Of a DNA stretch of 20,688 bases, positions 1-19,444 are shown piece by piece (position 1 is the first letter of the stretch; every line of letters begins with the position of its first letter). The stretch is from Leucosporidium creatinivorum (Eukaryota; Basidiomycota; Microbotryomycetes; Leucosporidiales; Leucosporidiaceae), in contig BCKL01000021.1 of NCBI GenBank assembly GCA_001600635.1, positions 479,412-500,099 on the forward strand. The letters are read 5' to 3'. Both the position numbers and the translations under genes were made by a program. The notes beneath the pieces were generated by a model that did not search any database, was not told the DNA's origin, and worked only from the letters and a program-made list of their open reading frames with translations.

Positions 1-193
1 TACTGTGCTCATTGCGAGCTTCTCATACAGCTCCAGATGAATCGGTAGCTTTCAATCTCCACGTCTGGCGCACCTACCTACAGAATCGCCCAACTGAGCT
101 AGACCCCCCTTCCCCCTTTCGGCACCCTCGCTCACTTTCCCTCCGCTTCATCTCACACGGTCGACACTCGAATCGCCTACAGCTTTCCAACAA

Positions 194-2701
194 ATGGCTG
201 AAGCTGTACCCTTTGATCCTTCGTCGCACTCGCACCGACGATTCAACCCTCTTACACAGGAATGGGTCCTCTGCTCTCGTGAGTGATGCGCCGCGCTAAG
301 ATGGGTTGTAGCGGTTCAAGGAAGGGATAGGGAGGGCTCTGACTTGCAGCGAAGCAGCGCGAGAGTGATGCGGAGGGATTGAGCTACACAGGCATAGCAG
401 AAGAGGCTACAGAGGTGCAGAAGAGCGGCTCATCCGGCTCGAGACGGCGCCCATTGTTCTGCTAGCGAGCAGCTCGGCGGGGTCGTCTGCTGCGGTAGGG
501 TGGCAGCTTGTACCCCGATGATCTTCTCCGTGCTCTGCTGTAGCTCTATCAGCAGTGCACTCGCCTGCAGAGCCACAAATTCACTTCTCTGGAGTCCGGC
601 GCGTGTTCTAGCCGGTCGAACGCTGTAGTGAAGGCAGCTGGGTGGTCGAGGGGAGGTACAGGGGAGGCTGCAGACTACGGTCCATCTTCTCTTGCTCTCA
701 GCAAGGGCGGAGAGCTGTCTTCGGCGAGTTCACTCCAGCCTCATCTTCGCGCACTCCTCCCATGCTGCAGAGGATCAACAGGCGTCCTGACCAAACGAGT
801 GGGCTGCGGTTCGCACTGCTGTGGTTGCTACTCGCTTCGAGACAGGCCAGCCTGCTTTCTCGGCGATCATCTTCGGTCGACCTTGCTGCTCGGCGGAGGC
901 TGAGATGGCTCTGGAGGGGGGTCCGTCGGCGATGGCGATCGCTTTTTCGCCAGTCCGGTGCTTACTCCTCGACCCCTGGTGATGATGAACCGTGCTGACT
1001 CCTCCGTCATCTTCTTTCTGTGATTCCTTCCTCTCTACCCTTCCCCCTCTTCTCCGCCGAAACCCTCCACCTCCCATCCTTCCACCCTGCACAACAGCTC
1101 ACCGCACCAAGCGACCGTGGCAAGGAGCGGTCGAACCTCCTCAACTGGACGCCCGACCGGCCTACGACGAGAAATGCTATCTCTGCCCGGGCAACGAGCG
1201 AGCTGGAGGAATCAAGACTGAGCAGTACGAGGGGACGTTTGTGTTCGATGTGAGTCATTCCCATCCCTCACCTTCCCGAGCTTCCGCTGATGAGCATTCT
1301 GCGCCACACCAGAACGACTTTGCGGCCCTCGTTGAGACCTCGGTGCTCCCTCCGGCCCCCTCGGCGCAAGGAGACGCCGTCAACTCGCTCTTCCAGCAAG
1401 AACCGGCGAGGGGAAAGTGCTATGTCATCTGCTTCTCCCCGAGGCATGACTTGACTGTGGCGGAGATGAGCAATGAGGAAATTGAGGGAGTTGTCAGGAC
1501 TTGGTGAGTTCGGGAGAGGTCGACGGCGAAGCAGGAGCTGATGTCGAGTCTCGTGCAGGACCAAGCTTTATGTCGATGTCTCGATCGAGCACCCGTGGCT
1601 CAAGTACATTCAGATGTAAGCTGCCTCGACTCACTCGCTGCTCGGCGCAGGCTGACCCCACCTTCGCGCAACGTAGCTTCGAAAACAAGGGCTCGATGAT
1701 GGGCTGCTCGAACCCTCATCCTCACGGACAGGTGCACTTTTTGCTCTCCGCTGTCCAAAGTACGGCAGCTGACTCTCCGCTCGCTCCCTCGAACAGGCCT
1801 GGTCGCTTTCCTACANCCCCNCCCGTCCCGCCACGATCCTCCAATCCCAGCGCGACTACGCCCTCTCGCAGTCTCCGATCCCTAACGCTCCCCTTCTGTA
1901 CGCTCTCTCCCCTCCTTTCCTCCTCAATTTCGGCGCTGACACTCTCCGGCTCTCACTCAGAGCCAACGGCAAGCCCTCCCTCCTGCTCAACTACGCCGCT
2001 TCCGAGCTCGCCAAGCATCACAACGGAGATAAAGACTCGAGGGTCGTGCTCGTGGGCAAGCACTTTGTCGCCGTCGTGCCATTCTGGGCGAGCTGGCCTT
2101 TCGAGACGATGGTCATCCCGTTCCAGTGAGTCTCGATCGTCTCGCTTACTCAGAGGTAGAAGGAGAAGCTGACGCCTCGTCGCTTGGAACAGACGCCACG
2201 TCCCCTCCCTCGCTGCTCTGACCGAGGAGGAGGCCAAGGACCTTGCGGCCACCCTCGGCGCCATCTCCCGCCGAATGGACAATCTGTGCGTTTGGCTCTC
2301 TTCTCTTCCCTTCTGCCAGCTCACTGACGCTGCACCGATCTCTCCACAGCTTCGAATGCTCCTTCGGCTACTCGATGGGCGTGTACCAAGCTCCCGTGCA
2401 CCGTCCTCCGACCGCCGAGGCTGCAGACGATTGGGCAGCTTACGCTCAGCTGCACGTCGGCTTCTACCCTCCCTTGTTGAGGAGCTCGACCGTCAAGAAG
2501 TTCTTGGTTGGGTGAGTGCTCGGCGTCTTGCATTGTCTCGCCTTGCTGCTCGGCGAACGAGGCGGAGAACGAGGAGCTGACGATCTCCTTCGACACAGGT
2601 TCGAGCTGTTCGCCGAAACGCAGAGGGATATCACACCCGAGCAGGCGGCTAAACGGTTGAGGGAGTGCGATGATGTGCACTACAAGCAGAAGAAGGAGTA
2701 G
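194..2701 (+). CDS. GAL7: Galactose-1-phosphate uridylyltransferase, copy A
   Basis: Leloir-pathway enzyme that exchanges UMP between UDP-glucose and galactose-1-phosphate, expected in the cytosol. Ten exons: 194-278, 1098-1249, 1313-1503, 1559-1615, 1677-1731, 1797-1897, 1961-2125, 2193-2285, 2350-2511, 2599-2701, giving 387 aa, normal for the family. Visible landmarks are the N-terminal [10 protein letters not shown] followed by [11 protein letters not shown] (joined across intron 1), the zinc-site CYLC at residues 55-58, and the active-site HPHGQ at 176-180, where His178 is the expected uridylylated nucleophile. The C-terminal [21 protein letters not shown] is the family hallmark. The start is the ATG giving MAEAVPFDP just before the conserved N-terminus. 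Two N bases (1816, 1821) leave residues shortly after HPHGQ unknown. The last residues are YKQKKE, against YKKK in copy B. No other Leloir gene is in the window. Confidence 0.95.
279..1097 (+). other. Very long first intron of GAL7 copy A (819 nt)
   Basis: Donor GTGAGT at 279 and acceptor ACAACAG ending at 1097 join S-P-H-R-T exactly as in GalT proteins of other organisms, so no coding exon is missing inside. The other GAL7 introns are 55-87 nt. A typical short-intron acceptor with its own CTGAC branch motif (CTGACTTGCAG, ending near 350) lies only ~70 nt into it, and a GCTGAC lies near 994. Short open frames inside (for example 628-998) have no recognisable product. GCTCGGCG occurs at 472 and 888. 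Confidence 0.8.
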
Positions 2702-3176
2702 GGCTCGGCGATAGAACTGCTGCGGCTTTGCATCGACATAGAAAATGCACGGAATAGATGCTCATTAAGACTATGCAACCCTGCAGACGACCGAGAGACC
2801 GCTCTGACTTTGTGATGTACTGCTCGGAGGGGCAATTCGATCACTGCAAGCGCTGGGAAAGCGCGACGTTCTCCTTGGCTTCTCACGCTCTCGACGCAAA
2901 CTCGTCGAATCAAACTACGACAAGGTGAGTCTCTACTCTGCGCCTATTCACCTACAGCGCTTGATCCTTCCACCATCGCTCGAGCTCACCTCGCCCTCTT
3001 CTCTCCGCTTCATCTCTCGCTCCTTCGCCATCCTTTTGCTATAGCAGACCAACTCGCACTTCTACCGGACTACACTCGACGACTCTAGCTCTCGCTTTTA
3101 CGCGCTCCAAGCCTCTCAGAGCGCTACATCACCATCACCCTCGAGCTCAAACAACAGCCGCTTCCGCTCTCCGGCC
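2702..3176 (+). promoter_or_regulatory. GAL7-A terminator region and promoter/5'UTR of the TEA gene
   Basis: This is 475 bp without a supported coding exon. The AT-richer stretch around 2735-2775 is a plausible 3' end for GAL7-A. GTGAGT at 2925, with possible acceptors at 3046 (TATAGCAG) or 3158 (ACAACAG), could make a 5'UTR intron; the nearer CAG at 2957 would make only a 33-nt intron. GCTCGGCG lies directly after the GAL7 stop (2703-2710). No TATA box can be assigned with confidence. Confidence 0.4.
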
Positions 3177-4503
3177 ATGTCGTCTTCCAGCAACCTCCGT
3201 ACGTTCTAGCTAAGCAGCCACAGATCAAACGATCGCTAATTCGTCTGGTCACCTACAGAACCGCCCTCCGCCACCTCTACACCTCGCGCGAAGCGCGGTC
3301 GACCCTCTGTCGCCCCTTCCTCCGCTTCTTCGGCGATCAGCACCTCTACACCGCAGAAGAAGATCAAGTACGAGCCAGGAACTGTATTGGATGAGTCCGG
3401 CCAACTCTGGAACAGCGAGCTCGACGAGGCGCTCATAGCGGGTGAGTCCCGCTCTCGTCGCGCGCTCAAACAATGAAGCGGAGGGCGTTAGAAGCGCATT
3501 GGCTGAGTTGTCGCCGTACACGACAGCTTTCAAGGTCATCCCCAACATCGGACGCCGCACGGTCGTGATTGACGGTCACTCCCTCGGCCGTAATGGACTC
3601 GTCGCCGAGTACCTCCTCCGCCGAACGGGCAAGAGCAGGAGTAGGAGTCAGATCCAGTCGCACATCCAGATCTTGAAAAAGCACAACCCCAACGACGAAA
3701 AGCGTTAGTCACATCGCTCGTCCTCGCCGCTTCAAAGAAGCCTCGGCTGACCAGCTCCCTTCGGGTTCGCAGTGCTCGCCCTCTTCGCTCAACCCGCCAT
3801 CGAGGGTACCGAGCCCCTCTCCCTCAACTTTGAAGCCATCCTCGGCTCTCGACACCCTACTACCCTCGCCGCCATCGCCGCAGCCGCCTCCTCCGCCGCT
3901 CCCTTTTCCGCCGGCATTGATCCCACCATGTACATCACTCGAAAGGGTATCCTCGAACAAGAGATCGTCGTCGATTTGGACGCGCCGAGGGCTTCGAGGA
4001 GGAGTAGCAGTCGTGCGCCTGGGACGAGCGAGCGGGCCAGCTCGGTCGCCGCGAGTGAGGGAGGAGACGCCGAGTCGAGCAAGGCTAAGGCTACACCGAG
4101 GCCTGCTAGGGTCGCGGCTACCAAGGAATCGACGCCAAGGAAGGCTGCTGCGCCGAGGAGGTCGACCAGTAGGACGCCTAGGAAGAGTTCGGGGTTGGCC
4201 GCTGGGGAGGGAGGAGCTTCGGCGAGTGCGACGCCGGCGAGGAGGGGAAGGAAGAGCGCTGCCCCTCCTGTGCCGGTCCTCATCGTGCAGGGTAGCAAGC
4301 AGGCGGTGGAGGATGCGATGGCGGTCGATGGAGTCGAGGGCAAGGAGGAACTCGTGATTAGCGACCAGGTCCTCATCGCGACGCCGCTGCCAGAGATGGC
4401 TGCAGAAGATCAGCCGCTGGTGGTGGCGACGGAGAGGCCAGAAGTGCAGCAGGGATGGCTCGGCAAGGCCAAGGGAGCGTTCTGGAGCATGGTTGGCTAC
4501 TGA
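3177..4503 (+). CDS. TEA/ATTS-domain transcription factor
   Basis: Predicted nuclear DNA-binding regulator of the AbaA/Tec1/TEAD class, 370 aa. Exons: 3177-3198, 3259-3441, 3527-3703, 3773-4503; all three introns are phase 1. The TEA domain spans about residues 57-125: W58, then the helix containing IPNIGRR, GRNGLVAEYLLRRTGK, and the recognition segment SRSRSQIQSHIQILKK, which matches the TEA signature closely. It is interrupted by intron 2 at Ala69. An AT-hook-like core (KRGRP, 19-23) precedes it. The C-terminal part (residues 128-370) has LSLNFEAILGSRHPTT, then a long basic, Ser/Pro/Ala-rich disordered stretch; no YAP-binding domain like that of animal TEADs is evident. The start is the first ATG whose short exon splices in frame. 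Target genes cannot be told from the sequence. Domain call strong, exon 1 fairly sure. Confidence 0.88.
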
Positions 4504-4526
4504 GTGGCTCGGCGAGGAGTTTTGAG

Positions 4527-4587
4527 GTGAGCTCGCTTTCCGCTTCCTGCTCTCAAGCCCGGGCGCTGACTTCTTAACATCTCGCAG
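4527..4587 (+). other. 3'UTR intron of the TEA gene
   Basis: This 61-nt segment begins GTGAGC, contains GCTGAC and ends CTCGCAG, the same design as the coding introns here. It starts 23 nt after the TGA stop, closer than the ~50-nt distance usually associated with nonsense-mediated decay. Splicing is predicted from motifs only. Confidence 0.6.
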
Positions 4588-5103
4588 TGTGTTCTTGGTA
4601 GATTTTACTTATCGTTTAGTCCTGTTCTACCAGCGTAAGATGTGCTCTCGACGCTGCTCGGCGACTGCGAGACTCGAGAGCGAGCTGTAGAGTCGCCCGA
4701 CGCGCCTCAAACCTCGGTAGCTCGGCCAGGCGTGTATTTGAAGCTGTTTTACATTCTTGGATACCCACTGCTGACCTACAGCTCGTCAAGTACATCGTGC
4801 GGAGGCGGTCTGAGCGTGGCGGCTAGGAGTCGACCGTCCTTCAAACGCCTCTTGCCCTCCGCCACATCACTCGATTTTTGTGCAAGCTCGCTACACGGCT
4901 ACAGGTGAGTCTCCGATCGCGCTACAGGCTGGTGGTGCTCTCTTGGACGCCTGCTCGCTGCTCGACAAGCGGTGGCGCGGCTGAGCGCTGAGCAGAGATG
5001 AGATGAAGAGGCTGACTTGGAGCGACTTCGCGCAGGGCTTGCAGGACAGCAAGAAGAGCGACCAGCATCTCAGTACAGCTCGACAAGCGCGTCTAACAAG
5101 AAA
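4588..5103 (+). promoter_or_regulatory. Intergenic region and 5'UTR (probable intron) of the next Myb gene
   Basis: This holds the end of the TEA transcript (AT-rich near 4598-4625) and the promoter/leader of the gene starting at 5104. A likely 5'UTR intron runs from GTGAGT at 4905 to a CAG at 5035 or 5044, with GCTGAC near 5011. GCTCGGCG occurs at 4656. The open frame at 4642-4908 has no recognisable product and is not called as a gene. Confidence 0.45.
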
Positions 5104-8100
5104 ATGTTCCCCTACCCCGGTCCAGCTACTGGTGAGCGCTTCTCGCTGGCTGATGCTCGAAGCAGAGGGCGCTGTAGCTGATGCGCTGGACCTACAGGTG
5201 GCCGAAGTCATTCCAACGATCTACCCATCGACTTCTCTCCCTATCCCGCTCCCAAACTCGGTGAGTAGACCTGCTCACCTACAGCCCGCACGGACCGCTG
5301 ACGCCCTCCGCCCCTTCGCAGAACCTTCCGTCTCTCCTCCTGCCGACGCTGGGCAGCACCCCGCTACGCACGCCTCCTCCGACGAAGGCTCGTCTTCCGA
5401 CTCGCAACCTCTCCCGACCGCCGGCCCCGATGCGGACCCTAATCGTGCTCAAGTCAAGGGACGTTGGGCGAGCGAGGAGGAAGCCGAGGTGCTCGAGTGG
5501 ACGCCTCTGTACCTCAAAGCTGGCAAGTCGTTCGAGGATATCGCTCAGGCGTTGACCAAGAGGAGGAGTACGGCAGCCGTCAGAGCTCGCTGGAACAAGC
5601 TCGCCGAGGGCAAGGAGGAGTTTGCTCATCTCATCAAGAGGAAGAGGAGTAGGACAGGTGAGTCGTTTCGCTCTCCCTCGCGAGGACGAGTGTTGATCTC
5701 GCTTCTCTCCGTCTCACAGCTACCGATGAAGGAAGCGATAGGGCGTCGTCGTCTACCCCCGGTCCCGCTCAAGAGCCTGCGCGCGCGAAAGTCGAGTCGA
5801 TCGAGGTCGGCTTGGAGGGAGACATGAGGGGAGGTCCTTCTTTCGGTGGATACGGGTATCAAGGTGCGCGTTGCTTCAGCGTCTCCCTCTTCGCCTGGCT
5901 GACCCTCGTCAAGCTCCAGCTGCTCAACGACTTCCCACGCCGGCGCCTTGGGACATTGACGAGGATGCTCGCTTGACTTCTGCGGTCTTGCTTCGTGGAG
6001 AGGATGACTGGGAGAGGGTCCGTCAGGAAATGCAGCCGAGCACTCGTACGGCGCAGGAGCTGAGGGAGAGGTGGTTCACCGCTACGAAGAGCGTCGATGC
6101 CGGTGTGCCCATTCCACTGTTCACGAGACCTTGAAGTGTTTGCTCATCAGCTGTCTATCCTACAACAGCCATCCGAAGCCGAGGGATGTGGAATCTCCCT
6201 CTCCCCTTTCTTCAGGCCGCTCTCGCCAAGGCTCCCGGCTTCGACCACCAAGGACACCTCTTCCTCGACAGCAACAAGAACTGGACGCCCATTCCCCCCT
6301 ACTTCCCGTCTCCCGCTACCGACGCCATGCACCAGAGGACAGCTCAGCAAGCCCAGCTCATCGCTCGCGAAGCCTCTTCCTCTCACGATCCTCGCTACTC
6401 TCGTCCGCCCTCGAACGTCGGTGCTTCCACCTCGGCCTCGCTCGACGCTCTCAGCGCTTCTCGGGTCTCTGGATACGACCAAATGCTCGACAAGATCAAG
6501 GCGGGAGGTCCCATGTCGAACGCCCAGCAGCAACAGCCTCACGAGAAGCCGGCTTCGTCGGCGCCGTCGCTTCCTGCAGCCGAGGAGCGCGCCAAGGCTC
6601 ACATCGCCGCTCACACCGCCGCTCAACTTCAACCTCGTCCTTCTCACGGCGGGTTCGGAGGAGCCATCCCGCCCTTCGTCAACAAGCCGAGCCCTCTCGC
6701 GACCTCGACCGTCCTCTCGGCGAACGGCATCGACCAAAGCTGGGGTGGAGGAGGAGGCGCACCGAGCATGGGAGTCGGTAACGGTGCGGCGTTGAGCACG
6801 GAGGCGGGATCGACGAGCGGCGAGGCGCCCGAGACGAGGACTCTGGGATCGCTCCCTCCCCTCAGCCGCTCCGAACCCGCTCCTCGCAAGTTCGAGCTTC
6901 CTCCTCTCCCCGGCTCGCAGCCTTTCAACTTCAAGCTCCCTCCCATCGCATCCGTCGTCCCCACTCCGCCTAACAGCTCTTCGGCGCCCCCCAGCACGCC
7001 CGTCCACTTCCAGCGTCAACCGCTCCCTATCTCCTTCCCTCAGCAGCCGGCTCCCTCCACGCAGACGCCTCCTATGCAAGCTCCCTACCACCTTCACCAG
7101 CAGCAGTCGAGCGCTGAGCAGGCGCAGAGGCAGCTTCTGAGCCGCGTTTCGGGAGCCGTTTCCGGCGGATCGACTCCCGCCTCGGCGCCTCCTTCCCTTC
7201 AGAGGACGGCGTCGTACAACTACGACATGTTCAACACTCCTCTCGCGCCTGTCAGCTCCATGTACACGCTCCCTCGCACCCAGTCGACTCCCGCCCTCTC
7301 CTTCTACAGCCAGTCGCCCGCCAACGGCGGCGCCTTCGCTTCGCAGGGCATCTCTCAGTCCTGGACGCCTGCACCCATCCAGCCCTACCACCAGCCCTAC
7401 AACAACCTTCCTTCTCTTTCCATTCTTCCTCATCCTTCCACTCCCGACATCTCCGCCTCTGCCGCGACGGATTTCCTCCCCGCCGCCTCCTCCACCACCG
7501 CCGAAACGACGAAAGGTCCTTCTCCTCCCTCGACTCCTCGCGCTCGCTCGGGCCGTGCCGCTTCGCAAAAGGCCGGCGAGTTGATGCAGAAGCTCGTCAA
7601 GGAGTCGCAGGAGGACGACGACGAGGAGGAGCAGGAGGAGTGGATCGCTCGCAAGGCTGCGAAGCCCAAGTCGGGCAAGGCGCCGGCGGCGAGCGAGACG
7701 CCGCAGGACATGGACATTCCCACTACCGAGGAGGAACCCACGGAGCAGGCGCAGGAATCCGAGGAGGAGGACTACGGAAGCGACGAGGAGTGGGATGGCG
7801 AGGATTCGGGCGCGGGCGCCAAGCGTGGGGGAGGGAAGAAGAAGCGCTCGGCAGCCTCGAAGAGCGTCGCTCCTTCCTCCAAGAGGGCAAGGACCATGAG
7901 CGAGTCGTCGCTCTCCTCTGCTATCGAGACGGATGAGGCGAGGACGCCGGCCGAGGGAGCGAGGCTCGGAGGTGTCGGAGAAGAGGAGGAGATCGAAGTG
8001 GAGGACGAAATCGAGAGGATCGTCAAAAAACCCAAGATCGACTCGCCGAAGAAGGAGCCGGCGTTCTCCATCGTCGTGAACGTCGCTCAGAAGAAGCCGT

Positions 8101-8126
8101 CGTCGAGCTCGCAGGAGTCTGCTTGA
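5104..8126 (+). CDS. Large two-repeat Myb/SANT-like DNA-binding protein
   Basis: Putative nuclear transcription or chromatin regulator, 888 aa in this model. Exons: 5104-5131, 5198-5260, 5322-5657, 5720-5863, 5920-6104, 6216-8126. Myb-like repeat 1 is at residues 76-125 (W79, F101, W121; GRWASEEE then AVRARWNKL) and repeat 2 at 200-245 (W201, W221, W242; PWDIDEDARL then LRERWFTA), each in its own exon. The rest is disordered: Pro/Gln/Ser-rich from about 270 to 690, then acidic (EDDDEEEQEEW) with basic nuclear-signal-like clusters (GGGKKKRSA, SSKRARTM, VKKPKIDSPKK). The long last exon carries the tail. The start is the ATG giving MFPYPGPA, just after a probable leader intron. The CTACAG at 5284 would leave only a 24-nt intron, so the 61-nt form ending at 5321 (with GCTGAC) is preferred. 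The 6104/6216 junction is the least certain. Orthology unknown. Confidence 0.78.
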
Positions 8127-8142
8127 GCTAAAGTGGTGGATG

Positions 8143-8204
8143 GTGAGCTGCGCCTGTCCTCCTCTTCGACGAAGATCCGAGCTGACTCTCGTCTACATCT
8201 GCAG
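8143..8204 (+). other. 3'UTR intron of the 5104-8126 Myb gene
   Basis: This 62-nt segment runs from GTGAGC through GAGCTGACTC to TCTGCAG and begins 16 nt after the TGA. It matches the local intron pattern closely. Predicted from motifs only. Confidence 0.6.
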
Positions 8205-8399
8205 TCTTGGTTCTAGCTTGGTCCGTTTCTAGTTCTCCCTCCGTTTCGCTTTACCCTCCTCGTCGCTCGGTCGACGAGGTCCTCGCTTGCTTGTAGTCCT
8301 CTTGCTTTAGTGCTCTCAATTCGGACATAGCCCTTTTGGTGAACTCGCTATTGCACAAGAGAGACAAGCGTATCTACACAAGCAAGCCAAGCCGACACC
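8205..8399. terminator. Convergent 3' region between two Myb genes
   Basis: The genes on either side converge here, with stops at 8124-8126 (+) and 8400-8402 (-). The stretch holds the overlapping 3' ends of both. T-rich and mixed sequence around 8205-8350 is consistent with 3'UTR, but no single polyadenylation signal can be assigned. Confidence 0.35.
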
Positions 8400-10388
8400 T
8401 CACTTCAAGCCTGCTCTTCCCGACCAGACCTCGCCGAAGGTGGAAGCTTCGCGCCTCAGCATGGGTTTGATAGCTGAGCTTCCGCTACTGGCAGCCTGCA
8501 TGTATCCCTGAGGCGTCGAGGCCTGTCCTTGAGCTCCCGCTCTGGCCAGACGAGGCAGCGAAGGCCAGACAGGAGGGTTGGGCGTCGGCGCTGAGAAGCG
8601 AGGAGGCGGGAAGGGAGTGACGGGGAAGGGAGCGACGGCATGGAACGATGGCGATGGGTACACAGAAGGTGCGGGAAGTGGGATGTGATAGCCGTAGGGT
8701 ACGGAGTGAGGAGGGAAAGGTCTTTGCGAGCTGGTCGGCGCCTTCGGCGTTGAGAAGTGTCCGGGTGAGGGAAGGAAGTAAGGAGCTCGGACAGCTGCGG
8801 CAGCGCGACGATCAGCCCTGATCTTTTTTGGACTCGACTCTATCCCGACATGCTCACCTCTAGCGGTAGGAAGGAACACTGGCTCGCTTGAGGGCTGGGG
8901 CTGGAGCTGTGGTTGGACTGAAGCAGGCGAGGGGAAAGCTGAGGGTTTTCGAAGGTCAGCGAGAGCTACGTATACGATCGGCAGAAATATCTCACTTTGC
9001 TCCAGCTCGAAGACCACGGGCGAGGCGCCCTCGTCGTCGTCCTTGTTGAGCAGCTGGTCGATGCGAGTCACAAGCTGGGCGCGACCGCTCTGCTGATGAC
9101 CTTCTTGGGACGAGATAGGCACTTGATCGGCTCCAGGGGTGCTCCAAATGTCCTCCTCGACTGTTCGGAGAGAATGGTCAGCGAAAGCTGGAGCAAGGAT
9201 GATCACCGAGCTCACCTTCCTCGTCCTCCTCGCTCACTTTGACGAGCTCATGATCTAGACCCTCTAGCTCCCCCCTAATCCTCTTCTCGAACACAGCCCA
9301 GGTCAGCCTTGGAGGACCCGTCAACGTCGCCTGAATCGTCCTGTCCCTCGCCTGATCCCTCGCCCTCCTCTTGTTCGCTCCAATCTCCTTCCTCGTCTCG
9401 ATCCTCCCTCTAATCTTCCCCCATCTCGCAGCAATGGAAGCGCCTCCTCGTCCTGGGAAGTTCTCGACGAGCTTGGCGTACGAGTGGTGCTTGGTCGTGT
9501 CGCCGGTCTTGAGGGCGATGAGGAGCGAGTCTTCGGCGGGTTGCCAAGGGCGCTTGCTGAAGGTGTCTTCCGGAACGAGGTCGGTAGGGGAAGACGTGCG
9601 ACGGTTGGTGGTAGTCGGACTGTAGCTGGGGTCTTCTTCCTCTTCGATGCCGGCGTTGGAGGAAGAGCGAGTCGCCGAAGCCATTCCCTCGGAGGCAGCT
9701 GGCGAGCCCGAGACGATGCTTCCGCGTCGTTTGCTGGGAGTGTCTTCGTACCAGTCGTAGGCATCGTCGATGGAGCGCTTCCTGCTCCTCGCTTCGAGCT
9801 CCGAGCCTTGTTTCTCGCCTGCGAAGAAGAGCCAGTGAGCTCGGTCTTCCATCGGACAGCATCTTGGCAACGCACCTTTACCCCTTCCTCCCGACTCGAT
9901 GACCTTCCATCTAGCTTTATGCGCTCCGCCAGACCTCGCATTCCCACCCTTCTTCTTCACATCCTCGGCGATGGCATCCCAGTCGACCGCCGTCAATCTC
10001 GGTCCTTTGCCTCCACGAGCTTCCGGTTCTTGCTCGAAGACGGCGCTCGAGCGGTCAGAGTGGGCGGTGAGAAGCAGCTGATCGTCGTTGGTCGTCCAGC
10101 CGAGCTTTCCCCCGTAGCGACGAGGCTCCACCGGCGACGAAGGCGGTTGAGGTGCGACTGGGAGAGGAGCAGGCGGAGGAGGCGCTGGTGGGGGAGTGGC
10201 GCTGAGGGGTGACGAAAGTGGTTGAGGGACGACTGTAGTCGACGCCAGTCCGGAGAGAGGCGTTACTCGTCTGCAGCACCGCATGCGCGTCAGCTCAGAC
10301 TCGCGGGCGCTTTCGACGAGGCGCTGCTGTAGCGTCTCGGGCTGTAGAGTAGCAGCAGAGCTCACCTGCTTCCGCCTATAGCTCGCAT
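8400..10388 (-). CDS. Two-repeat Myb/SANT-like DNA-binding protein
   Basis: Putative nuclear regulator, 574 aa. Exons in coding order: 10388-10366, 10270-9876, 9818-9216, 9160-8996, 8938-8400. The first repeat-like unit is at residues 65-133 (GWTTNDDQLLL, W66, W105, W129; HKARWKVI) and has a longer than usual loop. The second is at 229-275 (RPWQPAEDSLLIALK, W231, W272; IAARWGKI). Each lies in its own exon. Between them are basic stretches (SRKRS, SKRRGS); the C-terminus is Pro/Phe/Ser-rich and disordered. The ATG at 10388 splices in frame (phase 2) and is preferred over a GTG three bases upstream in another frame. In intron 2, GTGCGT at 9875 is the preferred donor; GTAAAG a few bases earlier is possible. 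The gene converges on the Myb gene to its left and lies tandem with the one to its right. Function beyond DNA binding unknown. Confidence 0.75.
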
Positions 10389-10745
10389 ACACTAGAAATG
10401 AAGAAGGCTGGCGAAGTCGGGAGAGGCGACGAGCGCGACGAGGTGATGGCAGAAGCGGAAGAGCGGAGGCGAGGGTCGAGCGTCTGTTGTCGCTCTTTCC
10501 GGCTGCCTTCGCAGGTTGCTGAAGCTCTGAAGAAACTCGCAGCTATGACAGTAAGAGGGAAATCGAACGCTATCTGTAGTCTCGGACATAGCGCGAGAGC
10601 GAACGCCGAACAGAGTCGTCTTGCTCTCGATCTCGGGCATGCTCTACGGCACTGAGGGACTGCTTTTTGCACTGCACAAAGACTCTAGCGATACATGGTG
10701 CTGCCGTACTGCTTCCACCGACTTTCCAATTTCTCTCCCCGCCGG
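10389..10745 (-). promoter_or_regulatory. Upstream region of the 8400-10388 gene
   Basis: This stretch separates two genes on the minus strand and should hold the promoter and leader of the left one and the 3' end of the right one. The open frames at 10398-10655 (+) and 10376-10672 (-) are GC-rich, Arg/Ala-rich and resemble no family I know, so no gene is called. No clear core promoter element was found. Confidence 0.4.
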
Positions 10746-10809
10746 CTGCAGAAGATCGCCGAAGTCAGCTTCCAGTCTGTGTACTTTGAGCTTGCACAGC
10801 AATACTCAC
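10746..10809 (-). other. 3'UTR intron of the 10822-12693 gene
   Basis: On the minus strand a 64-nt segment runs GTGAGT ... AAGCTGACTT ... TTCTGCAG. It begins 12 nt after the stop codon, like the 3'UTR introns of the two plus-strand genes to the left. Predicted from motifs only. Confidence 0.6.
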
Positions 10810-10821
10810 CTCAGTCCACAC

Positions 10822-12693
10822 TCATCCCCTTCTGAAGAACTCGCTACATCTCGCAGCTAGCAACGCCTCCGCCTCGGACTGTGGCGCCGAGTATCGCTCG
10901 AGCCTCGACCAATCCTCCTGACTCCATCCCTGCACCTCGCCGGGTCGCTTGAAGTCGGTGGTTTCGTAAAGTCTTGGTACTTGTAGATGAGCAATGCTTC
11001 CGGTAGCTTGACGCTGGACGAGGGGATCGTTCGGAGAAGAGATAGAGTCGGGCGCCAAGGTTGCCGAGGTGGAGGGATGAGGGTGGCTGGTGTAGCAAGG
11101 CGTGAGGAACGATCCGGAGGAGGTGTAGGTCGAGGAAGCAGGTTGATGGATCATGTCTTCAGGAGGGCTGGCAAAGATCGGTGGGAAGGTTGAGGTCGAC
11201 GGTTCGGGGGCACCGAGCTGGAGCGGCGGGATCCACCAGTCGGAAGCCGGAGTGATGGGAGCTCTTTGGGACTTGAGGTCTAGGTAGGGTTTGATCAGTA
11301 TAAGATCTGGTAGTCTAAGAAGACTGAAGCCGAAGACACACCTCCAGCCGACGACAAAGTTCTCCCATCGAGCTCGACCTTCGGCGGCTCGCGTTCGACG
11401 ACCGTGGCCGCCTGCATCTCGACATCAGTCTTTCCCTCAACCCAGCCGTACAGTCTCCCCAAAGCAAGCCACTCGTCTTTGCCCATGGACTGCTTCTCCG
11501 CCTGTCCCGCTCCTTCCGCTTCCAGACTCGGCTCGGCGGTGGTCGAAGGCTCGGTCGTCGTTTGGTTTGCGAGACAGGGCACGTCGAGCGCCAAAGGAGC
11601 GAAAGTGAAACTGGAGTAAACGTGGTCGGCTTGGGAGTTGTAGGCCTGATCTAGCAAGACGGTGGGGTTGAGCGAGTTGAAGGGCGACTCGGTGGGAGAA
11701 GTTGAGGGAGCGAGATCGGGCGAGGCGCTGCTGGACGACGGTGTAGAGCCCTTTACTTCTTCGGTAGTGGTGGAGGGCACAGGGGCAGGCGTGGTCGAGG
11801 TGTCGAAGACAGAAGGACTTGCCGACTCAATTCGGCGGTCGACTCCGAGCTTCGGTTTGCTTCTCTTAGAGCTCGACTTCTTTGGAAGACGAGCAACGCC
11901 TGTGATGTAGTCGGGCTAGTGAGCGAACGACGCTGAGCTAGGACACACGCAGAGCTCACCTTTCAACCCTCGATTCGCCTCCCTCTCGACCAAGCCCCGC
12001 CTCTTAGCCATCTCGTACTCATACTTCCTCTGCACCGCCTTCTCGGTTCTGTTGACCCCCAGATCCGCCGCGATGGTCTTCCAAGCGACCTTGCTGATCG
12101 CTCCGGCCGTCGCCTTCTGATTCTCGGCGAGCGAAAGGAGCAGCTCGATGTCGGCCGAGGACCACGACTTGCCGTCGAGGTTGCCACGAGAACCCTTGGA
12201 CGCCTTGGATTTGCTCTTCGGATTGTTGGAGGATCTGAACGTGATGTCGAAGGGAGAAGGTCGAGTGACGGACACCGGTGCGCTGGTCGAGTCGGGTTCG
12301 GAGGGAATGAAGAGGCTGGAGGAGGCGGCGAGGACGATGGAACTGGTTGTGTTGAACATGGATGAGCGGGAGTGCTCTGTAGGCGAGTACAAGTTGAGTC
12401 AGCTCGTCATTCGACTGTTGATCTCGCTGCAGCTGGGACGCACTCAGCTCCGTCGGTCTGCCCTCTTCCAGCGCCTGCAGCTTCGGCGCAAGCAGCGATC
12501 CTCTCTTCTGCGACGAGAGTTTCGTCCGGTGCTGTACCGGTAGCGCAAAGTCCGAAGGCGGTCGAGCATCGACCTCTGAGGCTGAGGTTGGGGCGGCAGG
12601 CTGAGCTGTGGTGAAGGGGAAAGGACAAGGGGGGGCGACGTGCTCTACTGAGACTACTCCTAGGCGTAGTTTGACGACAAGGCCTTCCGCCAT
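10822..12693 (-). CDS. Single-repeat Myb-like DNA-binding protein
   Basis: Putative nuclear transcription factor, 560 aa. Exons in coding order: 12693-12444, 12376-11960, 11899-11342, 11279-10822; all introns are phase 1. One Myb-like unit at about residues 153-210 (KSWSSADIELLLSLA, W155, W182; VAWKTIAADLGVNRT, then AVQRKYEYEMAKRRG) lies wholly in exon 2. The third aromatic position is Tyr202 instead of Trp, as in several Myb-like families. A Ser/Lys-rich basic stretch (137-147) precedes it and KKSSSKRSKPK follows. The rest is Ser/Thr/Pro-rich, ending in WSQEDWSRLERY and a charged tail. Intron 1 uses GTGCGT with GCTGAC. Intron 3 is less typical (GTGTGT donor, CTAG acceptor). The start is the first ATG of the open frame (MAEGLVV). 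The N-terminal 80 residues have no recognised domain. Confidence 0.75.
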
Positions 12694-13090
12694 CCCGTAG
12701 CTCCTTGAGAAGCGAGCTGTGATGGTTAAGCAAGAGGAGCAGCGCAAGGCGAGAGCGAGAGGAGGCAAGGTCCAAGCTCGGCGCGGGGAAATCGAAGTTG
12801 GGAAGGAAAAGGGGCAGGCTGCAAGCCATCAAGAGAGGCGAGAGAGGTATCGTGCAGTATTCTAACGAGGTCTCGAGCCCTCTAAGCCACCTTGCAGAGC
12901 GGCGAGAGTAAGGCTCGGCGTTCGCCCCTGCATGCTATCTCTCGAGCGAGATGGGAACAAACAGAATCTTTTCAGTCGGCAGTCACAAGGTCAAACTAGA
13001 GAGCAAAGGGGGTATCCTATCAAACAAGCAACTCCGTCCGTTCTTCACCAAGCAACCAAGCAAGCGATCCCTCGTCCGAGCAAGTCCGCC
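12694..13090 (-). promoter_or_regulatory. Upstream region of the single-repeat Myb gene / 3' end of the Myb-C2H2 gene
   Basis: This is 397 bp between tandem minus-strand genes. The right part (about 12940-13080) is richer in A/T and holds the likely 3' end of the Myb-C2H2 transcript. The left part is the promoter/leader of the gene starting at 12693. GCTCGGCG occurs at 12913. Nothing else can be supported. Confidence 0.4.
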
Positions 13091-16000
13091 TCAAACCCTC
13101 GTCCTCTCATAGCTTCCATCAGCCTCTGCGCCCTCGACAAGCGGCACCTCAATATCCCCCCCACCAACCGCGATATCGCCGTCCTGGACGACCCTCTGCT
13201 TCTTCTGCTGCTCCTGGCTCTGCTCGGCGTTATCCTCCTCCCTCGCCCTCTTGCCTGCGCTTCCTCCCACCTCCAGATCGCCAACGGGAGCGGGAGGAGG
13301 AGGAGGAACGAACTGCAAGCTCGACGGGACGGGCAAAGTGTCGTCCCCATCCGTCTGCTTGGCCTCGGCGAGCGCGGTGGCTTCCATCGCTTGGAGCTGC
13401 TTGAGGAAGTCGTTCTCGTTGAAGTGGGCTTGCGCCTCGGCGGTGGAAGGGGCCGCAGCGTCAGAAGCGTCTCCCTCGGCGGCGGAAGGGTCGCGAGCGG
13501 GAAGGTTGTCGCCGGCGGTGAGGGCGGGGTCGAGGTTCTCGGCGAGCTCCTCGGCTCCAGCGTTGGATCCTCCCTCTCCCGAAGCATCGTCTCCCTCTCC
13601 TCCTTCGCCATCCTCTCCCTCCTCGCTCGCCGCCTTGGCCGCCTTGCCCTTGCGAGTCTTGGTCGAGCCGCGACGAGCTGGAGCGCCGGCAGCGGGCTTC
13701 TTCTTGGCGGGGAGTTCCTTCTCCTCGATCGGCTCGTAGCGGTGGGTCGTGCCATCCTCGAGAGGCTCGTCGAGCTTGACGGCGCGTTGCGCGTGGACCA
13801 TGGCCATCTGAGGGAGAGGAAGTGAAAGGTCAGCGAGGTGCGCTCGGAGAAAAGGAAAGGCTACGTACGTGCTGTTGGAGGTTGTCCTTGCGCGAGAACG
13901 ACTTGGTGCAGCCCGTCATTTGGCAAGGGAAGGCTGGTGGAGGGAGCGAGGGGAGAGTCAGCTTCACCACTCCTACAAAATCCCTCGCGCCTCGTAGCCG
14001 TCGACCTCGAAGCAAGAATGGGAAAGCGAAAGAAGGAAGCCGACTCACGCTTCGATCCCATATGCACGCTCCTATAATGCCTCTTGAGATGCTCGCTCCT
14101 CTTGAACGCGGCGCTACAGTTCTCGGCGGGGCAGGTGTGCACCTTCTTAGCCTTGCCCGAGGGGGAGAAGAGCTTGCCCTTGAGCTCTTCTTCGGCGAGG
14201 GTGCGACGACCGCGGATGACGGAGGTGGGAGTGAAGGGGATGGGAGGTTTGGCGACGAGGGCTGAGGCGGGGAGGAAGACGGGGGATTCGCCGGCGCCTG
14301 TGGTCGTGTGCGAAGTAGGAGAGGATGTGGTGTAAGCTTCGGTGTGGAGGAAAGAAGCCGAAAAGAGCGAAAGGTTGACGCACGAGTGAAGGTGTGCTTG
14401 CCCTTGACGCCGGGAGCCTTGGGACGGATGCGAGAAGCGGCCGTCTTCTTGGGCTTGGGAGCAGGTCCTTTGGCGTCCTCGTCCCAGTCGGCATCGCCTG
14501 TAGTGAGCGGACCGGAGCCAGTCGAGGTCAGCGTGTGTCTCTGTCGGCATCTGATGGCTCGAGGTTCTCGGCGCCGAAGCTCGGAAGCGAACTCACCCTC
14601 AGCCTCATCATCGTCCTCAATCTCGAAATCATCGTCTCCCTCGACCGCCTCTCCACCCTCAACCTGCAAATCGCCCTCAACTCCAGCTTCTCCCTCCACC
14701 AAGAACTCCTCCTCCTCTTCCTCCTCCTCCTCGGCCGGCTTATGATGGGTGTTCCACCTCTGCCTGCACGCCCTCCACGTCCTGTTGTGTCCCACATCCG
14801 TCGCGATGGATTGCCATGCCGCTTCCGTCTCGCCACCGTGCTTGGCGTAGGCAACCTTGAGCGCCTCGTCGTCCTCGCCTGCCCAGCGGCGGAGAGGGCC
14901 GCGAGTGACTTTCTCGACGGGCTCGGGGGAGGAGGCCTCTTCGGGTTCGGAGTCGGAGGAGGCGGCTGTTGTGAAGCAGCGGTTAGCGATGAGCGAGATG
15001 AAGAGGGAGCGAGTGACGAACCCTCTTTGTAGATCATGCCTCGGGGGACCTTGCCGTTCGGTTCGACGCGCTTGATGCCTGCAGGGGAGCAGCAAAGTCA
15101 GCACAGAGCTCGGAAACGGCGCCGAGACGGCTGAACTTACCACGGTGCAAGTCGGAAAGATGGTTATACCATCTCTGACCACAGACCTGGCTCCTCTTGC
15201 CGAGCTTCTCTCCAATCTGGCTCCAGTTCAAAGGCGGATCCTCCTTGACGGCCTCGAGAAGCTTCTCATCCTCCTCCTGCGTCCAGCGACTCCCACCAGA
15301 TCTAGCGCTCGACTCGCGACGCGGGGGCGCCTGACCCTGTTGCTGCTGATTGTGCTGGTTGGCGACTTGAGCGAGCAGAGCAGCTGCACCACGATCATCA
15401 TCGTCGGGGACGTAGTCGTCGTCTCCTCCGCGATGAGGGGGCGAGTGCTGGTGGTGGTACCCTTGAGGTGGGAATTGAGCGCGAGGGGCGTAGGCCGAAA
15501 GAGCGGGCTGCTGCTGAGGGAGCGCCGGCTGGGGAACGCTCAAGTTCAAAAGGTGGTGTGCAGGAGAGTTGGCGGTGAGACGAGGGTCGAATTGGTGAGC
15601 GCCGAGAGGAGGAGGACCGCCGCTGCCGCCTGCGCCGAGTTGACCGAGGCCGGGAGGAGGAGGAGGGCGGGGCGCGCCGTAGGGCGAGGGCGATCCGTAG
15701 TGAGGGATGGGTCCTACTGTTGAGGTGTACAGGTGAGCTGTGATCCTACAGAGAAGTACTCTGCGCAACGCCTCACCTCCGAACTGCTTTTGCTGCTGAG
15801 AAGGGCCGACTTGGAATGGAGCGGGCTGTTGCTGTTGGAGGTGAGGCGGATGAGGGAGGCCGTAGGGAACGAACGGCTGCTGCTGCTGCTGTTGCTGTTG
15901 AGGCGGTTGCTGTTGACCATACTGGTACACGGGAATATCATGCTGTGGCCCAGGGAATCCTGTAGGACAGCAGAACCAAGCTTAGCGAGCGCTACCAAAC

Positions 16001-16102
16001 AAACGAGACGGGATCAGGCCCCTCTCTCTGTGGAGCTGTAAGGGACTCACCTGGGGGAAGGAGCTGCTGTCCAGGGGGTCGATTCGACTGTCCTTGATCC
16101 AT
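13091..16102 (-). CDS. Myb-C2H2 fusion transcription factor
   Basis: Predicted nuclear factor of 793 aa with two kinds of DNA-binding domain. Exons in coding order: 16102-16051, 15959-15777, 15716-15141, 15078-15022, 14965-14597, 14497-14384, 14297-14049, 13933-13869, 13807-13091. The N-terminus is Gln/Pro-rich with an 8-Gln run. Myb repeat 1 (221-266) has the classic W223-W243-W261 spacing (SRWTQEEDEKLL, QRWYNHL). Repeat 2 (315-362) has W317, W340, W360. A 9-Glu run and acidic region follow. Two C2H2 fingers are at 506-529 and 537-560, both C-x4-C-x12-H-x4-H, linked by MGSKPFPC; the helices KRSEHLKRH and SRKDNLQQH resemble Msn2/4-type fingers. The tail is acidic, then hydrophilic. Repeats and fingers lie in separate exons, and the last intron falls right after the first His of finger 2. 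Two junctions are weak: the GTTCGT donor at 15021, and the intron-6 acceptor, for which AAG at 14337 is an alternative. Confidence 0.85.
14706..14732 (-). repeat. GAG/GAA codon run (9 Glu) in the Myb-C2H2 gene
   Basis: Nine consecutive Glu codons, eight GAG and one GAA, read as CTC/TTC on the plus strand. They lie just after Myb repeat 2 and start an acidic region. Such a run may vary in length between strains. Confidence 0.9.
15877..15900 (-). repeat. CAG/CAA codon run (8 Gln) in the Myb-C2H2 gene
   Basis: Eight Gln codons in a row, ending with five CAG, within a wider Gln/Pro-rich N-terminus typical of transcriptional activation regions. It is a candidate length-variable microsatellite. 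Confidence 0.9.
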
Positions 16103-16529
16103 TTTACTGCTGTAGCCGAGTAGCGGAAGCTGACAGGGGGGTGTGGCAGGAAGGAGAGGAGGCACTCGCCAAACCCTGACTCGCCACCTCAAGACTTCGG
16201 CTGGGAGCCGGACCAAGCTGCTTGGGTGTATCTCACTACAGCTTCTGCTCCTCTAGCCTGTTCTGCTCAACTACAGCTTCAGTCTCTTGCTCCTGGCGCC
16301 CCTCGGTCAGCTCCAGGTGCCTTCTCCCCTTCCACCGGCCGATAGCGAGTGCGGTGCGATTCTCTTCCCCTTCTTTCGCTCAATCTGTAGTCGAGTACAG
16401 CGCTCCAAATCGCACTTTTGCTTCATAAAGTATCAATGCATAACTCTAGTGCTTCGAGATGTCTATAGCGCTCATTCTATCCCATTCGTCGCCCCTCTTT
16501 GTCCTCCCTTCCTGCTCGGCGAAGCCTCT
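16103..16529. promoter_or_regulatory. Promoter of the Myb-C2H2 gene and 3' end of GAL7 copy B
   Basis: The two minus-strand genes are 427 bp apart. The right half, about 16400-16490, is AT-richer and probably carries the GAL7-B polyadenylation region. The left half should be the Myb-C2H2 promoter and leader. This sequence is unrelated to the 3' flank of GAL7 copy A, so it marks the inner end of the repeat. GCTCGGCG lies at 16514. Confidence 0.45.
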
Positions 16530-19031
16530 CTACTTCTTCTTGTAGTGCACATCATCGCACTCCCTCAACCGCTTAGCCGCCTGCTCGGGCGTGATGTCCC
16601 TCTGCGTTTCGGCGAACAGCTCGAACCTGTGTCGAAGGAGGTCGTCAGCTCCTCGTTCTCCGCCTCGTTCGCCGAGCAGCAAGGCGAGATAATGCAAGAC
16701 GCCGAGCACTCACCCAACCAAGAACTTCTTGACGGTCGAGCTCCTCAACAAGGGAGGGTAGAAGCCGACGTGCAGCTGAGCGTAAGCTGCCCAATCGTCT
16801 GCAGCCTCGGCGGTCGGAGGACGGTGCACGGGAGCTTGGTACACGCCCATCGAGTAGCCGAAGGAGCATTCGAAGCTGTGGAGAGATCGGTGCAGCGTCA
16901 GTGAGCTGGCAGAAGGGAAGAGAAGAGAGCCAAACGCACAGATTGTCCATTCGGCGGGAGATGGCGCCGAGGGTGGCCGCAAGGTCCTTGGCCTCCTCCT
17001 CGGTCAGAGCAGCGAGGGAGGGGACGTGGCGTCTGTTCCAAGCGACGAGGCGTCAGCTTCTCCTTCTACCTCTGAGTAAGCGAGACGATCGAGACTCACT
17101 GGAACGGGATGACCATCGTCTCGAAAGGCCAGCTCGCCCAGAATGGCACGACGGCGACAAAGTGCTTGCCCACGAGCACGACCCTCGAGTCTTTATCTCC
17201 GTTGTGATGCTTGGCGAGCTCGGAAGCGGCGTAGTTGAGCAGGAGGGAGGGCTTGCCGTTGGCTCTGAGTGAGAGCCGGAGAGTGTCAGCGCCGAAATTG
17301 AGGAGGAAAGGAGGGGAGAGAGCGTACAGAAGGGGAGCGTTAGGGATCGGAGACTGCGAGAGGGCGTAGTCGCGCTGGGATTGGAGGATCGTGGCGGGAC
17401 GGGNGGGGNTGTAGGAAAGCGACCAGGCCTGTTCGAGGGANCGAGCGGAGAGTCAGCTGCCGTACTTTGGACAGCGGAGAGCAAAAAGTGCACCTGTCCG
17501 TGAGGATGAGGGTTCGAGCAGCCCATCATCGAGCCCTTGTTTTCGAAGCTACGTTGCGCGAAGGTGGGGTCAGCCTGCGCCGAGCAGCGAGTGAGTCGAG
17601 GCAGCTTACATCTGAATGTACTTGAGCCACGGGTGCTCGATCGAGACATCGACATAAAGCTTGGTCCTGCACGAGACTCGACATCAGCTCCTGCTTCGCC
17701 GTCGACCTCTCCCGAACTCACCAAGTCCTGACAACTCCCTCAATTTCCTCATTGCTCATCTCCGCCACAGTCAAGTCATGCCTCGGGGAGAAGCAGATGA
17801 CATAGCACTTTCCCCTCGCCGGTTCTTGCTGGAAGAGCGAGTTGACGGCGTCTCCTTGCGCCGAGGGGGCCGGAGGGAGCACCGAGGTCTCAACGAGGGC
17901 CGCAAAGTCGTTCTGGTGTGGCGCAGAATGCTCATCAGCGGAAGCTCGGGAAGGTGAGGGATGGGAATGACTCACATCGAACACAAACGTCCCCTCGTAC
18001 TGCTCAGTCTTGATTCCTCCAGCTCGCTCGTTGCCCGGGCAGAGATAGCATTTCTCGTCGTAGGCCGGTCGGGCGTCCAGTTGAGGAGGTTCGACCGCTC
18101 CTTGCCACGGTCGCTTGGTGCGGTGAGCTGTTGTGCAGGGTGGAAGGATGGGAGGTGGAGGGTTTCGGCGGAGAAGAGGGGGAAGGGTAGAGAGGAAGGA
18201 ATCACAGAAAGAAGATGACGGAGGAGTCAGCACGGTTCATCATCACCAGGGGTCGAGGAGTAAGCACCGGACTGGCGAAAAAGCGATCGCCATCGCCGAC
18301 GGACCCCCCTCCAGAGCCATCTCAGCCTCCGCCGAGCAGCAAGGTCGACCGAAGATGATCGCCGAGAAAGCAGGCTGGCCTGTCTCGAAGCGAGTAGCAA
18401 CCACAGCAGTGCGAACCGCAGCCCACTCGTTTGGTCAGGACGCCTGTTGATCCTCTGCAGCATGGGAGGAGTGCGCGAAGATGAGGCTGGAGTGAACTCG
18501 CCGAAGACAGCTCTCCGCCCTTGCTGAGAGCAAGAGAAGATGGACCGTAGTCTGCAGCCTCCCCTGTACCTCCCCTCGACCACCCAGCTGCCTTCACTAC
18601 AGCGTTCGACCGGCTAGAACACGCGCCGGACTCCAGAGAAGTGAATTTGTGGCTCTGCAGGCGAGTGCACTGCTGATAGAGCTACAGCAGAGCACGGAGA
18701 AGATCATCGGGGTACAAGCTGCCACCCTACCGCAGCAGACGACCCCGCCGAGCTGCTCGCTAGCAGAACAATGGGCGCCGTCTCGAGCCGGATGAGCCGC
18801 TCTTCTGCACCTCTGTAGCCTCTTCTGCTATGCCTGTGTAGCTCAATCCCTCCGCATCACTCTCGCGCTGCTTCGCTGCAAGTCAGAGCCCTCCCTATCC
18901 CTTCCTTGAACCGCTACAACCCATCTTAGCGCGGCGCATCACTCACGAGAGCAGAGGACCCATTCCTGTGTAAGAGGGTTGAATCGTCGGTGCGAGTGCG
19001 ACGAAGGATCAAAGGGTACAGCTTCAGCCAT
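16530..19031 (-). CDS. GAL7: Galactose-1-phosphate uridylyltransferase, copy B
   Basis: Second, inverted GAL7 copy, 385 aa. Exons in coding order: 19031-18947, 18127-17976, 17912-17722, 17666-17610, 17548-17494, 17428-17328, 17264-17100, 17032-16940, 16875-16714, 16626-16530. It encodes the same protein as copy A, including CYLC (55-58) and HPHGQ (176-180), up to the last residues: it ends YKKK, two residues shorter. The three exonic substitutions in the last exon (opposite 2629, 2635 and 2653) are all silent, and the other two lie in intron 9, so both copies look functional or very recently so. N bases at 17404 and 17409 fall in exon 6 and a third (17441) in intron 5. It is divergent from the Myb-like gene starting at 19445, so the two may share a promoter region. 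Confidence 0.93.
18128..18946 (-). other. Long first intron of GAL7 copy B (819 nt)
   Basis: Mirror of the copy A intron with no difference found by reading. Such identity over long noncoding DNA is unexpected unless the duplication or homogenisation is very recent or the assembly has reused one sequence. Confidence 0.8.
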
Positions 19032-19444
19032 TTGTTGGAAAGCTGTAGGCGATTCGAGTGTCGACCGTGTGAGATGAAGCGGAGGGAAAGTGAGCGAGGG
19101 TGCCGAAAGGGGGAAGGGGGGTCTAGCTCAGTTGGGCGATTCTGTAGGTAGGTGCGCCAGACGTGGAGATTGAAAGCTACCGATTCATCTGGAGCTGTAT
19201 GAGAAGCTCGCAATGAGCACAGTAAGGGGAAAGGGCCCCACCTGCTCGGCGCCGAGCTGGCGAGCCAGGAGGACCGGCGAAGGAGGTCTAGTGGTTCAGC
19301 AAAGGCAGGAAAGTGCAGATCTAGTTACCAGTAGTCACTGAAAGGCATTCACATTCTGCACCCCACTCGAACCGTCTGGCTTCTCGACCTTCACCGCTCC
19401 GCTCCTCTTTCTTGTCACCTCGTTTCGCGCTTCTCGACTTCGTC
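19032..19444. promoter_or_regulatory. Divergent promoter between GAL7-B and the three-repeat Myb-like gene
   Basis: This is 413 bp between two divergent start codons. The left 193 bp belong to repeat arm B and are shared with GAL7-A; the right 220 bp are unique in the window. No Gal4-type CGG-N11-CCG site was seen. The part at 19290-19370 is less GC-rich and a pyrimidine-rich leader (19380-19440) precedes the Myb ATG. Confidence 0.5.
19244..19257. repeat. Perfect 14-bp palindrome GCTCGGCGCCGAGC
   Basis: This short palindrome is its own reverse complement and consists of two head-to-head GCTCGGCG-type half sites. It lies 19 bp outside the last visible base of arm B, inside the divergent promoter. 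It may bind a dimeric factor. Confidence 0.85.

Follow-up and report, generated by a model that had tools for sequence, protein, structure and literature searches.

At the end of scaffold C21, the assembly has two complete-looking GAL7 genes that face each other in the arms of a near-identical inverted repeat. We regard a real, older pair of inverted paralogues subject to gene conversion as the best explanation of this arrangement, probable rather than secure. The window analyzed here is the whole stretch of 20,688 bp, bases 479412-500099 of a 500,099-bp scaffold, in a genome assembly of 27.7 Mb and 63 scaffolds. The ten-exon gene and a TEA/ATTS domain in the window, together with STE3-family matches elsewhere in the genome, are signs of fungal content. 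A repeat search with a minimum length of 40 returned a single inverted pair in the window, with arms A and B (Table 1) separated by a spacer of 13,834 bp, so the inverted duplication described by the first-pass annotation was recovered in the sequence, as were the 819-nt first intron (279-1097) and the 193 bp of arm that precede the ATG. A 2.7-kb repeat lies far outside what chance would give, and the inverted arms around a unique spacer have the form of a palindrome. When arm A was searched against the whole genome at the DNA level, two places matched, namely the two arms, and no third. Three things can be seen directly: two complete frames, two different 3' ends on unrelated inner flanks, and the confinement of every clear difference to the inner 161 bp of the repeat.

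Table 1. Features of the window, in window coordinates, with the basis on which each was delineated.
Feature	Position	Strand	Basis
Arm A of inverted repeat; base 1 adjoins a 2,810-N scaffold gap	1-2695	+	Repeat search, base-by-base comparison
Arm B of inverted repeat	16530-19224	-	Repeat search, base-by-base comparison
Inner 161 bp of arm A, with all 7 clear mismatches to arm B	2535-2695	+	Base-by-base comparison
Ns in arm A	1816, 1821 (mirrored at 17409, 17404 in arm B)		Base-by-base comparison
Ns in arm B	17404, 17409 (mirrored in arm A); 17441 (arm B only)		Base-by-base comparison
GAL7-A (galactose-1-phosphate uridylyltransferase), 10 exons, 387 aa	194-2701	+	GT-AG gene model
GAL7-A exons 1-5	194-278, 1098-1249, 1313-1503, 1559-1615, 1677-1731	+	GT-AG model
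GAL7-A exons 6-10	1797-1897, 1961-2125, 2193-2285, 2350-2511, 2599-2701	+	GT-AG model
GAL7-B, 10 exons, 385 aa	16530-19031	-	Exon structure as GAL7-A
TEA/ATTS domain exon, regulator-type gene	3532-3702	+	PF01285, E 1.6e-13
Open frame, weak Myb-like domain	4985-5824	+	PF13921, E 0.001, below Pfam cut-off
Open frame, very weak Myb-like match	9181-10542	-	PF00249, E 0.032, below cut-off
Open frame, weak Myb-like domain	11919-12398	-	PF13921, E 1.2e-4, just below cut-off
Open frame, Myb domain	13833-15227	-	PF00249, E 1.3e-7, over cut-off
Open frame, clear Myb domain	15037-15981	-	PF13921, E 6.6e-11

Both GAL7 copies had been called intact-looking, and this holds: each has a complete ten-exon frame, both GalT domains and the HPH motif. 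The GAL7-A model is the better scoring of two models that read through. Its spliced protein matched PF01087 (1.1e-63) over residues 7-188 and PF02744 (2.9e-49) over residues 205-385; this domain scan was run on GAL7-A, from which the GAL7-B protein differs, N codons aside, at the last residues alone (KQKKE in A, KKK in B). In both proteins, Ns in the assembly leave two residues as X. GAL7-A aligned with the solved enzyme 1hxq_A over residues 6-384, and it matched nine distinct solved sequences, with almost end-to-end coverage in five. SNPHPHGQ is present in both copies, with the same letters aligned in 1hxq_A; HPH is the active-site motif of GalT. Both domains, the full length and the HPH motif place the genes in the GalT family, and a search of the genome with the N-terminal GalT family found these two genes alone, with two exon matches each.

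We compared the arms base by base. They differ at 8 of 2695 positions, one of which is a C (1784) set against an N (17441) and is the sole mismatch in the outer 2534 positions. The seven clear mismatches (2535, 2584, 2629, 2635, 2653, 2687 and 2693) all lie within the inner 161 bp, which corresponds to a divergence of 4.3% there. If mismatches were spread uniformly over the arm, the chance of finding all seven in this segment would be 2.7e-9, and when the three N sites are added, for ten sites in all, the chance that at least 7 fall there is 2.8e-7. The arms are thus a mosaic, with seven differences in 161 bp and no clear difference (three N sites) in 2534 bp, and the interior is probably a shared consensus. 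The similarity between the arms stops at the stop codons (the A stop ends at 2701 and the B stop is 16532-16530). The inner flanks beyond them, compared over 2 kb each, gave no alignment longer than 25 bp and are therefore unrelated.

The differences at the 3' end behave as coding differences. In the last GAL7 exon up to base 2686, 3 of 17.7 synonymous sites and none of 69.3 replacement sites differ, a signal that consists of 3 changes in 29 codons. Across the earlier exons (353 codons, two N codons left out) there were no differences in 246.7 synonymous and 806.3 replacement sites. Judged from the sequence, the 3' pattern is what two separately evolving coding copies under purifying selection would give, and it suggests that the GAL7 3' ends diverged as two coding genes while the remainder was homogenised or partly collapsed. 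Since the 3' ends appear to have diverged as coding sequence, the data call for two GAL7 loci or, at the minimum, for two tails of the gene. A pure fold-back artefact, in which the arms would be identical and neither would have sequence of its own, was rejected because of the seven clear differences, with their coding constraint, and the unrelated inner flanks.

The interior of the arms has to be read with more care. Two of the isolated Ns are mirrored between the arms (Table 1), and a mirrored pair is scored as N = N, which hides the base. Because these Ns are mirrored, the identity of the interiors does not amount to two independent observations; the interiors are likely a shared assembly consensus rather than independent sequence, and the near-perfect identity of the arms is in part a product of genome assembly. 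Probably the Ns mark differences that the assembler could not place to either copy, and other differences between the arms may have been merged silently. The first-pass annotation had reported no difference over the outer 2534 bp. No clear mismatch was found there, but the C opposite an N and the two mirrored N sites qualify that statement. As a general caution for reading genomes, when isolated Ns are mirrored and one arm begins at the edge of a gap, such a lack of differences is unusable for dating a duplication.

We infer that Ns mark copy differences, and evidence from the same scaffold bears on this rule from both sides. In the first 200 kb (C21:1-200000, 20 loci), all 57 of 57 isolated Ns lie inside a single inverted repeat, another near-identical one. 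Isolated Ns were absent from three further stretches, each of 8-10 kb. To the left of the gap that borders the window, C21:473818-474171 carries 15 isolated Ns in or near a gene that we take to be UBA4/MOCS3-like. This N-bearing stretch occurs once in the assembly, so Ns are not always tied to a placed repeat. In the one exon translated (locus coordinates 4691-4800), which covers 7 of the 15 Ns at this locus, 6 of 7 fall at a single codon position, the silent third (binomial 0.007), and they seem to fit real variation rather than bad base calls. The lack of a second copy counts against the rule. So do the codon positions in GAL7, where the arm-A Ns lie at position 2 of codon 187 (1816) and position 1 of codon 189 (1821), neither of them silent; the arm-A base opposite the one-sided N is intronic. 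The bases adjacent to the Ns, when examined, showed nothing telling.

The outer end of arm A is a second place where assembly enters. Because base 1 of the window is the edge of the gap, this end is a contig end, set by an assembly break and not by any observed loss of similarity. To look for a larger duplication, we compared the outer flank of arm B with the sequence to the left of the gap, and no match longer than 24 bp was found.

The unmarked identity of the remaining gene needs either gene conversion over most of its length or silent merging by the assembler. The fact that the assembler kept apart 3' ends that differ at 7 of 161 positions indicates that the two interiors probably do resemble each other far more than the 3' ends do, and for this reason conversion is favored. 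Under the preferred explanation, the duplication would be of an age that allowed 3 of about 17.7 synonymous sites to diverge in the last exon, and intrachromosomal (ectopic) gene conversion between the arms would since have wiped out differences over the outer ~2.5 kb. The few differences that remain, at the N sites, would not have been assignable to a copy, so that both arms were written from one consensus, and the assembler would have broken off arm A where the outer end of the repeat could not be resolved. The inverted orientation would favor persistence, since a crossover between the two arms turns the spacer around and does not delete it; inverted pairs are expected to outlast direct pairs on this account. 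Any functional gain would probably lie in GAL7 dosage. The near-identity had been taken to imply either that the duplication is very recent or that gene conversion is ongoing. The arm identity cannot be read as recency, and the first of these is not favored, given 3' ends that differ in a purifying-selection pattern beside a remainder without clear difference. Conversion fares better, with the reservation that the mirrored Ns and the gap edge suggest interiors written from a shared assembly consensus.

The strongest rival is an assembly chimera, in which locus A holds a GAL7 3' remnant, or a more different copy that was left unresolved, and its contig was continued with the consensus of copy B as far as the gap, so that the perfect interior of arm A would be copy B written twice. 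We consider this possible, though clearly less probable than a real converting pair. It would account for an arm that starts exactly at the gap edge and for Ns common to both arms at mirrored positions, and near-identical arms also meet a gap or scaffold edge at C21:60531 and at the start of scaffold C13. Contigs also end at the unresolved outer ends of genuine repeats, however, so the gap does not discriminate between the two, and locus A has its own diverged, coding-constrained 161-bp 3' end, which means that some second copy exists.

A very recent inverted duplication without gene conversion, in which the new copy was joined to an older GAL7 tail, strikes us as unlikely. Such an event would leave no clear differences over 2534 bp, as observed, and the larger mirror on C13, with no differences in the bases sampled, indicates that young inverted duplications may occur in this genome. 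But a GAL7 tail would have had to lie exactly at the insertion point beforehand, and the Ns suggest that two or three interior differences are already present. That the arms are two alleles, from a diploid or a mixed culture, written into one scaffold is very improbable: isolated Ns do occur in the UBA4-like exon without a second copy in the assembly, but the inner flanks of the arms are unrelated, and there is no sign of general heterozygosity, as the isolated Ns of C21:1-200000 sit inside one repeat pair and three other stretches of 8-10 kb have no isolated Ns.

The arrangement had also been called unusual. It is less so here, as other gene-scale inverted duplications were found on C21 and C13. 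A second near-identical inverted pair, C21:60531-65413 / 99176-104059, is 99.1% alike, with 26 N positions mirrored and 5 one-sided. A terminal segment of 722 bp holds 42 of its 43 clear mismatches, and the opposite end is a gap edge; beyond the gap the similarity goes on at ~91% over ~0.6 kb. This pair shares the anatomy of the GAL7 pair: a gap edge, a diverged end and mirrored Ns. Such a picture would be expected if Ns stand at differences between near-identical copies that the assembler was unable to assign. C21:1-200000 contains three self-matches longer than 1 kb, all inverted (99.1%, about 98% and 88.5%), and the latter two have a common axis near 122.4 kb. No direct self-match above 1 kb appeared in the same region at a word size of 28, a setting too strict to pick up more diverged copies. 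The nested inverted matches at C21:109060-116114 / 128838-135564 (88-98%) lie around the 122.4 kb axis, and the arm at 113 kb carries a 462-codon open frame.

The start of C13 mirrors itself on a larger scale, with 1-55100 against 61073-116172, position 1 pairing with 116172 and a spacer of at most ~6 kb. All mirrored bases that were sampled are equal (7,828/7,828 aligned and 900/900 more from six places, 8,728/8,728 in all), a figure that describes a sample covering the smaller part of the arms. The central 300 bp is not a palindrome (88/300). Either a terminal inverted duplication of young age or a fault of the assembly could lie behind the mirror. It was noticed through two galE matches of equal score and is not a random sample. 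Inverted doublets that end at an assembly edge thus recur in this genome, which weakens the claim of an unusual arrangement and keeps the artefact explanation alive. A broader reading, that the genome holds many gene-scale inverted duplications, repeatedly homogenised by conversion and able to flip the blocks they enclose, is in our judgment doubtful. If it were true, the ages would run from apparently new (C13, with identical sampled arms) to old (88-92% on C21), and the regulator genes between the GAL7 copies, on a scaffold with many Myb-like genes, would form a block that can invert naturally.

The GAL7 pair is most likely a short gene-converting inverted repeat, and thus of an already known kind. 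Human Y palindrome P6 is an example of a gene-converting palindrome (PMC3723533), and the likeness lies in near-identical inverted arms whose identity is kept by arm-to-arm conversion. Compared with that palindrome, the arms here are 2.7 kb and carry one metabolic gene on a fungal nuclear scaffold without an STE3 match, and conversion at GAL7 is deduced from one genome. A second study (PMC12510652) concerns the Cryptococcus P/R loci, in which, according to its authors, divergent inverted pheromone-gene copies may promote inversion loops and may act as repair templates for gene conversion. These loci share with our pair the inverted gene copies in a fungus; GAL7, however, is not a mating-type gene, and it encloses a 13.8 kb spacer with regulator-type genes. 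In a literature search for duplicated or inverted GAL7 with gene conversion, no such pair appeared in the titles and opening lines of abstracts among the matches listed. If the pair is real, it would be a clean case in which gene conversion holds inverted metabolic paralogues together, so far without any indication of a neighboring sex or mating-type locus and with GAL7 standing apart from the GAL1- and GAL10-type matches.

A mating-type reading of the scaffold was considered; in a search with the mating receptor family STE3, both matches are on C25 and none is on C21. GAL1 and GAL10 were not found beside GAL7, and neither family had a listed match on C21. A partial galactokinase-domain match lies at C6:870659 and the best galE-type match at C5:564404, where the exon scores are under the family's whole-protein cut-off. 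A GAL10-GAL1-GAL7 cluster is described for many basidiomycetes (PMC10218983); the locus here shares with that cluster GAL7 of the Leloir pathway and differs in that GAL7 is doubled and lies away from the galactokinase- and galE-type matches.

The spacer had been described as a regulator cluster, which is fair for part of the block, where several genes for DNA-binding proteins (Myb, TEA/ATTS) were found. The window has 40 open frames of at least 150 aa, and a Pfam scan covered ten of these, nine from the spacer and a tenth from beyond arm B. Two of the ten had Myb matches over the Pfam cut-off, three stayed below it with Myb-like matches that were weak or very weak, and the other five had no Myb match. 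Within the first of the weakly matching frames (Table 1), the stretch 5465-5602 scored 23.5 bits in the genome search, just over the cut-off. The frame at 13833-15227 also has a weak zf-C2H2 match (E 4e-4, below cut-off), which may belong to another exon or gene. Six segments of the window look Myb-like, among them one in a frame that gave no Pfam match; compared with the first segment, the identity is only 18-30%. C21, which makes up 1.8% of the genome, holds 18 of the 52 genome-wide matches to PF13921 at E up to 1 and 12 of the 34 over the cut-off; the binomial value of 1e-18 for this concentration treats exon matches as independent, which they are not. Frame 19325-20050 beyond arm B has Myb-like-looking repeats and no Pfam match. 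By eye, GAL7-B and the gene with these repeats have apparent back-to-back starts over ~413 bp (window 19031-19445), and 193 bp of this shared upstream interval lie inside the repeat arm.
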